From: Halococcus agarilyticus
GTDB lineage: Archaea > Halobacteriota > Halobacteria > Halobacteriales > Halococcaceae
Direction: 5' to 3'
Assembly: GCF_000334895.1 (NCBI RefSeq)
Contig: NZ_BAFM01000018.1
Location: 1-64,000 of the forward strand
Length of the DNA stretch: 64,000 nt
A program made the translations under genes and the position numbers. Under the pieces are notes generated by a model. The model was not told where the DNA came from, did not search any database, and saw only the letters and a program-made list of their open reading frames with translations. Shown piece after piece: positions 8,398 through 40,240 of the stretch; position 1 is the stretch's first letter; every line of letters starts with the position of its first letter.

Positions 8398-8550
8398 ATG
8401 TGAGGATAGGAATCGCACGAAACGCTACCGAACACTACCGCAATCCCGGAGCCCACGTGGGCGAGTCAGATTTGCGGCCGTGCTGTTCCCATCCTCACTC
8501 ATCCGTGGGCCGGGTTAAACCGTTTCGACTCGGTGCGTCGGGTTCGATGG

Positions 8551-14902: not shown

Positions 14903-14983
14903 GCCGGGATGGCCGAGTGGTAAGGCGCACGCCTGGAAAGCGTGTTCCCTTTGGGATCCGGGGTTCAAATCCCCGTCCCGGCG
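14903..14983 (+). tRNA. tRNA-Ser (anticodon GGA)
   Basis: Acceptor stem GCCGGGA pairs with TCCCGGC, discriminator G. The anticodon GGA is at 14935-14937 and reads TCC. The long variable arm, GTTCCCTTTGGGATC, is the class II feature expected for serine. TATA-like CTTAAC lies about 28 bases upstream. A second copy of its 3' end is at 15093-15113. Confidence 0.97.
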
Positions 14984-15023
14984 CTTCTGCGAGGAACGGA
15001 CGTGACGAGCGAAGCGCACATCA

Positions 15024-15113
15024 CGGGGATTTGAGCAGACCAGTCGCAGCCCGGGAAGCGAGCGGAGCGAGCGACCCGGAACGTCTGGGCGAGTTCAAAT
15101 CCCCGTCCCGGCG
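15024..15113 (+). repeat. tRNA-tail stem-loop after tRNA-Ser
   Basis: CGGGGATTTGA at 15024-15034 is the inverse of the tRNA-Ser T-arm, and GTTCAAATCCCCGTCCCGGCG at 15093-15113 repeats the last 21 bases of the tRNA. The two arms can pair with each other. Between them is CCAGTCGCAGCC, which also occurs in the corresponding unit after tRNA-Ile. Confidence 0.7.
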
Positions 15114-15298
15114 TTCTCGTGAATAGTGCGGGACCGAATCCCGCGGACCATGCGAACGGTGGCTTCGCCACCGTGAGCAGACGAAGTGGACGAGAGCTCG
15201 GGGCGGCGAAGCCGTCTCGAACGACTCCGCTCGACAGAACGCCGAGACGGCTTCGCCGTCTCGTGATGACGAGAGAGCAACGCTCTCTCGAACCACGA
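15113..15298 (+). repeat. Family B palindromic element, long copy
   Basis: Starts with GTTCTCGTGA, directly joined to the tRNA-Ser tail copy. It holds a string of hairpins: GCGGGACC.., GGTGGCTTCGCCACC, the block GACGAGAGCTCGG, then a perfect hairpin at 15243-15263, the spacer TGATGA, a second perfect hairpin at 15270-15290, and AACCACGA. The same order is seen at 40088-40202, and the hairpin pair alone again at 15346-15403. The stems differ between copies while the spacers are conserved. Confidence 0.65.
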
Positions 15299-15345
15299 GA
15301 CAGAGCAGGGAGCAGCTTCGCTACAACCGTGCTTTTGCTGTCGTT

Positions 15346-15403
15346 CGAAAGGCGCTCCGCGCCTTTCGTGATGGCGAAAACGCTACGCGTTTTCGAACCA
15401 CGA
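15346..15403 (+). repeat. Family B hairpin pair, second copy
   Basis: A 10-bp perfect hairpin (15346-15368), the spacer TGATGG, an 8- to 9-bp perfect hairpin (15375-15395) and AACCACGA. It repeats the layout of 15243-15298 with different stem sequences. Confidence 0.65.
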
Positions 15404-38831: not shown

Positions 38832-39392
38832 ACGATCACAGTCGACTGGATTTTCCAGGGCAGTTGCACGGTAAAGCGGCTGCGGTGACGGTGCGGGCCT
38901 GGCGTCTCGGCGAGCGCAGCGAGCCGAGGCTCAGGAGAGCGTTGCTCTCCTGGTGGATGAAGGGCGAGACTGCGAGCGACGCGAGCAGTCGAGGGCTTCG
39001 GCGGTGCTGTGCGGTGGCGGTTGCGGTCCTTGGTGGATCGAGGGCGATCGACTGAAAGGAGTGAGGGCTCGGGCGGCACTGTGCGGTTGCAGAGCGGGAC
39101 GAGGAGGGCTAGCCGTTGTACCGCGAGCGAGCGCCGCAGGCGCGAGTGAGCGGGCCGAGGAACCCCCGGAGTTCTCGTGAGTAGCGCGGGACCTTCGGTC
39201 CCGCGGACCATGCGAACGGGGGCTCGGAAGAGCTTGCTCTTCCGGTGGGGGTGACGCAGGCTTTTGATCCACATTTTGCGAGGGAGCGAGCGTCGAGCGG
39301 GCCGAAGGCCCGCGAGAAGAAAGCGAGCGACCGTAGCAAAAGGTGGAGGCAGGGTCCGAAAAGTCCTTATGGGCGAGTGGACAACGATCAAA
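38832..39392. repeat. Repeat region upstream of the 7S RNA (family A, plus orientation; B-like end)
   Basis: Family A copy 3 is at 38883-39026 and a shorter, tandem second unit at 39028-39090. Copy 3 contains a hairpin CAGGAGAGCGTTGCTCTCCTG followed by TGGTGGATGAAGGGCGAGA and TCGAGGGCTTCGGCGGTGCT. From 39171 is GTTCTCGTGAGTAGCGCGGGACC, the same start as the family B copy at 15113, followed by GCGGACCATGCGAACGG. The region holds no supported protein gene. Copy 3 is matched in inverse on the other side of the 7S RNA. Confidence 0.65.
39365..39371 (+). promoter_or_regulatory. TATA box of the 7S RNA gene
   Basis: CCTTATG is about 26 bases before the predicted 5' end of the RNA at 39393. Confidence 0.5.
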
Positions 39393-39703
39393 TCGGACTA
39401 GGCCGGGCAGTTAGGCCCTGCTCGTCACCCGCGATACGGTCTTCAGCGGGGGCCGAACCCCGGGTGCGTCCGTGCCGACCGGCACGGGCCCCGCAAGCCA
39501 ACGTGGAAGCCTCGTCCGTCGGGGGCGGCGGTCCGCGGCACCTCGTCCGCAGGGACGACTCGCCGCGGTTGACCGGCGGCAGTCCGCCAGGCGCGGAAGC
39601 GAGCAGCGGACCGCCGGACAGCCGTCGCTCGCCGGGTCGCGGGGTGGAGAAGGCGCGCGGGTCTCCCCGTGCCGGAACGCCGGGCAATCCCGGGAGTCCG
39701 ACC
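39393..39703 (+). ncRNA. Signal recognition particle 7S RNA
   Basis: About 310 bases with the haloarchaeal 7S RNA order: the ends TCGGACT and AGTCCGA pair, followed inward by GGCCGGGC and its partner; the 5' domain has GGCAGTTAGGCCCTG; the GGGGGCCGAACCCCGGG segment and the GCGGAAGCGAGCAGC stretch (helix 8 loop with GGAAGC and AGCAG, the SRP54 binding site) are recognisable. It scaffolds SRP19 and SRP54 to target membrane proteins. The promoter and the long terminal stem agree on the ends to within a few bases. Confidence 0.9.
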
Positions 39704-40240
39704 TTCATCACCACCTTTTGCTACGCTCAGTCGCATCGCTGACGCTTGCTCCTGCTCACGGGTCGCTACGCTCCCCGTTCGCTTGTCCGGCGACGCTTCA
39801 CTACGTTCGCGCCGCCCGCCGCTCGCAAAACTTGGTTCAAAAGCCTCCTCTTTCCCTCGTCTCGCGGCTTCGCCGCTCGACCATCCGAGACGCTTCGCGC
39901 CTCGCACCGGTCAGTCGTCGGCCCGCTCGCTCACTGCGTTCGCTCGCGGTGCGATCACCACATCACCCGCAACCGCTGCCGCACCGCCACCGCACAGCAC
40001 CGCCGAAGCCCTCGACTGCTCGCGTCGCTCGCAGTCTCGCCCTTCATCCACCAGGAGAGCAACGCTCTCCTGAGCCTCGGCTCGCTGCGTTCTCGTGAAC
40101 CGAAGGTGAGCGAGAGCTCGGAGTCGTTCGAAAGGCGCGAAGCGCCTTTCGTGATGACGAGAGAGCGAAGCTCTCTCGAACCACGCGCGAAGCGTGCTTC
40201 GGCGCTCGCCGAGACGCCAGGCCCGCCCCGCCAAACCAGA
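39704..40240. repeat. Repeat region downstream of the 7S RNA (family A, minus orientation, with inserted family B)
   Basis: Family A copy 5 at 39967-40087 plus 40203-40236 is the near-exact inverse of copy 3. It is interrupted at one point by 115 bases (40088-40202) that are a family B element. The 39710-39960 part carries GCTTCGCTC-type palindromes and no supported gene. Confidence 0.65.
40088..40202 (+). repeat. Family B element, copy inserted into a family A repeat
   Basis: Starts CGTTCTCGTGAA and contains GCGAGAGCTCGG, a perfect hairpin at 40129-40151, TGATGA, a perfect hairpin at 40158-40178 and AACCACG. The same junction in copy 3 of family A (near 38905) is uninterrupted, giving an empty site for comparison. 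Confidence 0.65.

Follow-up and report, generated by a model that had tools for sequence, protein, structure and literature searches.

A 60-bp two-hairpin repeat within an interrupted palindrome of Halococcus agarilyticus: a probable non-autonomous mobile element resembling SMR-A

Introduction

Among described systems, the closest to the element considered here are the SMR-A repeats of Haloquadratum walsbyi (HqIRS42, HqIRS43 and HqIRS55), which insert without target duplication in near-terminal palindromes of PATEs and IS605-type transposons, and the mobilisation of which has been called enigmatic (PMC3119063). PATEs also produce no target duplication, carry palindromes near their ends and are too short to code (PMC3119063), in all of which they resemble our element; they lack inverted ends, whereas our element has such ends and in several cases lies inside palindromes. 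Further comparison is offered by REP, BIME and REPIN sequences with their RAYT transposases, which likewise consist of paired palindromes without an autonomous gene (PMC3116915, PMC3733652) and in several families of which dimers of unlike hairpins are favoured too (PMC3733652), and by MITEs, which are similarly small, non-autonomous and bounded by inverted ends.

We analysed a stretch of 64,000 nt of the Halococcus agarilyticus genome (hereafter, the window), in which one copy of a palindromic repeat, family A, carries 115 bases missing from another copy. A unit of 60 bp within these bases can be likened to SMR-A in the way it works, judging by behaviour and published description rather than by element sequence: it is non-coding and multicopy, has inverted ends, makes no target duplication and has no assigned helper (PMC3119063); some of its copies appear to lie within palindromes of other elements, including IS605-type ends, and its insertions are strain- or species-specific. 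The two differ in size, SMR-A being about 110 bp and the common form of the unit 56-62 bp (111-117 and about 170 bp are rarer), and in range, which is one species for SMR-A and most of an order for the unit. Among the open-licence papers searched, none described the unit sequence in haloarchaea.

Results

Copies 3 and 5 of family A

The locus comprises the archaeal SRP RNA gene flanked by family A copies 3 and 5 in inverted orientation:

38886..39021, minus strand: family A, copy 3, the uninterrupted counterpart (sequence comparison)
39391..39703, plus strand: archaeal SRP RNA gene between copies 3 and 5, context outside the element (Rfam RF01857)
39983..40087, plus strand: family A palindromic repeat, copy 5, left part (sequence comparison)
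40088..40123, plus strand: left part of the 55 non-unit nt, containing GTTCTCGTGAA (homologous segment in L003 and L004)
40184..40202, plus strand: right part of the 55 non-unit nt (homologous segment in L003 and L004)
40203..40233, plus strand: family A, copy 5, right part (sequence comparison)

The 115-base excess of copy 5 over copy 3, reported in the original prediction, was confirmed together with its junction words. The copies share 99% identity across 110 nt, and matching resumes for 25-32 nt past the 115 nt unique to copy 5. The position of the junction is free to vary by 3 nt (GCG on either side), and it reads either as 115 nt without duplication or as 112 nt with a 3-bp repeat; taken singly, the copy 5 site is compatible with such a repeat.

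Family A has 51 matching places in the H. agarilyticus genome. Thirty copies were fetched, and the arm in question was measurable in 28, being 20-24 nt long in 27 of them and 137 nt in copy 5; in L222 the arm, missed by the script, is short by eye, and L232 has no arm. A long arm likewise occurs in two more copies, L003 and L004. With the short arm as the common state, the simplest reading of copy 5 is a gain, which is likelier than a loss.

Removal of the 60-bp unit from copy 5 leaves 55 nt that are absent from copy 3. In L003 and L004 a segment homologous to this remainder occupies the same arm, with the unit at another position; therefore, copies 5 and 3 are separated by at least two events, and GTTCTCGTGAA falls in the remainder. 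The 55 extra bases, GTTCTCGTGAA included, belong to a different family A variant. The earlier proposal that the whole 115-nt block is the mobile unit does not hold, since filled and empty orthologues define 60 bp and the other 55 nt are seen in L003 and L004. Neither does GTTCTCGTGAA (at 40089 and 15113) mark a unit end, as had been suggested: it occurs in the window at chance level (24 matches against 21 expected, at most two mismatches) and belongs to the residual 55 nt.

Congeners differ in how the SRP RNA gene (window 38886-40233) is oriented with respect to the genes on its right: it is colinear with them in L071 and L072 and reversed in L066-L069, L073 and L075. In the reversed congeners the left-hand gene of the locus is non-adjacent, and a simple flip is therefore not the case. 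Elsewhere in the window, a second instance of the tRNA-Ser 3' end (TTCAAATCCCCGTCCCGGCG) lies some 120 bp downstream of the first, resembling an integration footprint (14903-15113), and the Rfam search revealed an S15-Halobacteria ribosomal protein leader (8432-8492, minus strand).

The 60-bp unit

The core is non-coding and consists of two hairpins joined by a conserved TGATGA linker between T[C/G]GTTCGA ends, which form 8-bp near-perfect inverted repeats with one mismatch. Its parts and its other copies in the window are:

40124..40183, plus strand: putative mobile unit, 60 bp, T CGTTCGA-hairpin 1-TCGTGATGACGA-hairpin 2-TCGAACC A, at G^CG (filled and empty orthologues; covariance model, 82 bits)
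40129..40151, plus strand: hairpin 1, 10-bp stem CGAAAGGCGC / GCGCCTTTCG (covariation, single-strand DNA fold)
40152..40157, plus strand: conserved linker TGATGA between the hairpins (63-copy alignment; the search pattern included most of this linker)
40158..40178, plus strand: hairpin 2, 9-bp stem CGAGAGAGC / GCTCTCTCG (covariation, fold)
15340..15402, plus strand: second complete core copy, with flanking G and CG (pattern and covariance model)
15241..15297, plus strand: third core copy, 5' end degenerate (covariance model)

The pattern hairpin-TGATGA-hairpin-AACCACG, which had been noticed in the 115 nt and at 15113-15298, has three matches in the window against 0.00 expected by chance, and the covariance model recovers the unit within the 115 nt with E = 8e-19. 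The second site consists of two cores. Another palindromic family, GTTCTCGTGA..GCGGGACC-hairpin-GGACCATGCGAACGG-hairpin, lies at 15113-15200 and 39171-39260 of the window, and similar sequence is found in loci such as L021 and L022.

Beyond the positions set by the pattern, the 5' end reads GTCGTT in 88 of 94 copies, and both stems are maintained; the 94 had been selected by a loose form of this same end. GTCG, and GTGG on the other strand, adjoin the hairpin foot. The stems are hypervariable, and only foot and linker are fixed. In the 63-copy alignment, both members vary in 12 of the 18 stem pairs and 98% of cells are paired; the covariation score reached 0.53, whereas shuffles gave 0.17 and slid controls no more than 0.13. 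With 247 double changes, G-T pairs account for only 6 of 1134 stem cells, a near-absence that would better fit maintenance of the unit as DNA hairpins than as RNA helices. The two hairpins of one unit never had an identical 5' arm (0 of 94; 9.9 expected; minimum 2 in 5000 shuffles), a comparison that is not a strict probability because the copies share ancestry. Single-strand DNA folding of the window copy yielded both hairpins (z -3.8), and the Rfam search gave no matching family for the unit. Loop sequences are found about equally often in either sense (GAA/TTC, GGA/TCC), as though the tips of the hairpins could flip.

Filled and empty sites

Orthologues were sought with probes from 12 of 21 sites in genomes G001, G003 and G009. 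Next to the SRP RNA gene the unit is present in G001 and missing from the same place in G003, the difference being exactly 60 bp with a single optimal alignment: GACATTCGAGG precedes and CGCTTCGCG follows the inserted TCGTTCGA...TCGAACCA. The comparison of relatives recommended with the original prediction yielded six orthologous sites across three sister species that are filled in one and empty in another, namely L066/L068 and five with a gap of about 60 bp (L270/L301, L277 vs L302 and L303, L271/L297, L274 vs L299 and L300, L275/L306). At two sites G003 is filled and both other sister species are empty. Other probed sites had filled orthologues, larger differences or ambiguous alignments.

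An exact-join test enumerated all cuts after which the joined flanks match the empty site exactly. For L066/L068, and for L277 against both L302 and L303, one cut was possible and it was the predicted 60-bp unit; L270/L301 gave two cuts 1 nt apart. L271, L274 and L275 allowed no cut, as substitutions lie close to the junction or, in the case of L275, the target loop is inverted (GAAG vs CTTC); these three sites rest on alignments. The L275/L306 pair thereby presents a target hairpin loop inverted between sister species.

No target duplication was detected at the three exact-join sites, with an ambiguity of at most 1 nt, and adjacent direct repeats of at least 3 nt fell within the range of shuffled flanks. 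Clean insertion or removal, as originally claimed, therefore stands for the 60-bp unit, supported by the sister-species sites, and not for the 115-nt block; the exact empty sites are scar-free and filled/empty pairs exist beyond the first. Movement of the MITE type, which had been invoked, finds no support since target duplication is absent at the exact-join sites; the unit differs from MITEs in this respect and in that no parent transposon was seen in the fetched loci.

Flanks of 67 distinct copies had G before the unit in 64, C or T next in 66 and then G in 54, giving the target G^YG; these copies were not chosen by a YG pattern, and a mild bias is possible, as the model that found some of them contains these columns. 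Copy L009 of the window's own genome agrees with these ends, reading GAGCGAACGGAG[unit]TGAGCGAG, with GAGCGAACGGAGTGAGCGAG being an arm sequence typical of family A. In several cases the unit is inserted inside the loop or arm of another palindrome. In H. agarilyticus the targets are family A arms of unassigned kind; in Salinirubellus, one copy sits at the 3' end of a TnpB gene; and in the Haloquadratum metagenome-assembled genome (MAG) of L108 (G060) several of 20 copies are at palindromes of the GCCTCGGGG^CTTGACCCCGAGGC- and GCCTCGGGG/CCCCGAGGC-type, a modest preference (15 of 1000 shuffles as high). The Salinirubellus and Haloquadratum sites match the description of SMR-A (PMC3119063). Palindromic targets found no significant support as a general rule, left and right flanks of 90 copies being no more complementary than shuffled pairs.

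Distribution and longer forms

Scanning one genome per species with the exact pattern returned at least 120 stretches, nearly all haloarchaeal, with a few chance matches in bacteria. Model R1 matched 47 of 60 relatives (E <= 0.001) and gave 62 matches in the window's own genome at the same threshold, some counted on both strands; as the unit is nearly symmetrical, one copy may enter the R1 counts twice, once per strand. In a phylum sample of 120 genomes, all 19 positive genomes were of the same order. Copy number in haloarchaea reaches dozens, and the Haloquadratum MAG G060 had 51 matches with strands counted separately. Plasmids also carry the unit (35 PLSDB records, haloarchaeal among those listed); H. 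walsbyi plasmid PL47 had no model match. Two viral contigs of IMG/VR matched the exact pattern and were weak by the model, so that viral carriage was not retained.

Unit lengths cluster at 56-62, 111-117 and 169-174 nt, corresponding to two, four and six hairpins with common ends; four- and six-hairpin forms are rarer than the two-hairpin form, and most entries of other lengths match the ends by chance. In G001, the 117-nt L281 and the 60-nt L066 have in common their near flanks, both outer hairpins (hairpins 1 and 2) and well over 100 bp of surrounding repeat; by this sequence similarity, one form may be convertible into the other, or the repeat may have been copied between sites. Relatives of about 170 nt, L015 and L020, have conserved linkers GGACAGTGCGATTCC, CTTGCAGTCGGGC and CTCAGTGACGA and no Rfam match, and L060 is a related, partly duplicated long form.

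Discussion

The unit within the 115 bases very probably moves. It is probably a non-autonomous small mobile repeat of haloarchaea, of the SMR-A behaviour class, inserted whole at G^YG without target duplication. Copy 5 would then have formed in at least two steps, the rise of a family A arm variant with some 55 extra bases and the entry of the 60-bp unit into that extra segment. The most likely route would be strand transfer into single-stranded or cruciform DNA, because the ends are hairpins, duplication is absent and stems are Watson-Crick with almost no G-T.

The main rival to insertion, unlikely in our view and yet live, is homologous recombination or gene conversion between dispersed palindromic repeats, which would add or remove the middle of the arm scar-free without transposition. 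Family A is dispersed, and copies 3 and 5 are nearly identical; many unit sites are themselves repeats, where conversion from a filled copy could mimic insertion, and target words, e.g. GAGCGAACGNAGTGAGCGAG, recur at several sites. The repeat shared by L281 and L066 points the same way, and even at the cleanest pair the 60-bp L066 form could derive from the 117-bp form by loss of its middle. Against conversion, the unit ends at one and the same base in differing flanks, at the G^YG consensus, and a unit with identical ends recurs across the order.

Returning to insertion, the original prediction that the unit codes for nothing and relies on a helper was supported, and any enzyme would therefore have to act in trans. 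Mobilisation of a REP/REPIN-like element by a Y1 HUH transposase of the IS200/RAYT type, the REP-type helper suggested earlier, is distinctly improbable. Paired hairpins, GT[C/G]G by the hairpin foot on both strands, the absence of target duplication and the presence of Y1 genes in 25 of 60 relatives all speak for it. However, the window's own genome, 98% complete, has no PF01797 (Y1) match, 19 of 39 unit-bearing genomes that are at least 90% complete are without Y1, copy number is unrelated to Y1 (rho 0.14, P 0.39), with no correlation over 60 genomes, and stem sequence is free to vary. The unit also differs from REP/RAYT systems in lacking a GTAG or CGTC tag, its ends being GTCG / GTGG, and in combining hypervariable stems and a fixed foot and linker with a genome devoid of a Y1/RAYT gene. 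TnpB (PF07282) was likewise rejected as helper (rho 0.15, P 0.35 in more complete genomes; 0.25, P 0.05 in all); weak unit-like matches were found in 3 of 20 TnpB loci.

That the unit is instead a selected structural or RNA element, such as a terminator or mRNA stabiliser, and not mobile seems highly unlikely, albeit such a role would be compatible with mobility. Compensatory conservation of two stems with a fixed linker, and longer forms with conserved linkers, would suit it, but presence and absence at orthologous sites, placement inside other repeats, almost no G-T (that is, G-U) pairs and the lack of an Rfam match argue otherwise. Deletion of 115 bases from copy 3 through slippage between short repeats (GCG) can be given very little credence: the 3-nt overlap at the junction would allow it, and it is opposed by the short arm in 27 of 27 other measured family A copies and by two other sites where two sister species are empty and one is filled.

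Whole-unit insertion may be extended, tentatively and with more doubt than confidence, to an order-wide haloarchaeal class of non-coding elements of two, four and six hairpins that insert at G^YG without duplication and are moved by an unrecognised non-HUH enzyme, which would read hairpin structure and the fixed linker, not stem sequence, the two hairpins being obliged to differ.

Conclusions

What was called an enigmatic repeat class in one species seems to extend across an order. Its ends are defined, it follows a target rule, and filled and empty sites are ready to hand, so that the missing enzyme can be sought by comparison of gene content and is testable in tractable haloarchaea. The two hairpins of a unit always differ in their arms, and the stems covary with hardly any G-T pairs; both features suggest that DNA structure is recognised or maintained, something of which few known transposition systems make use.
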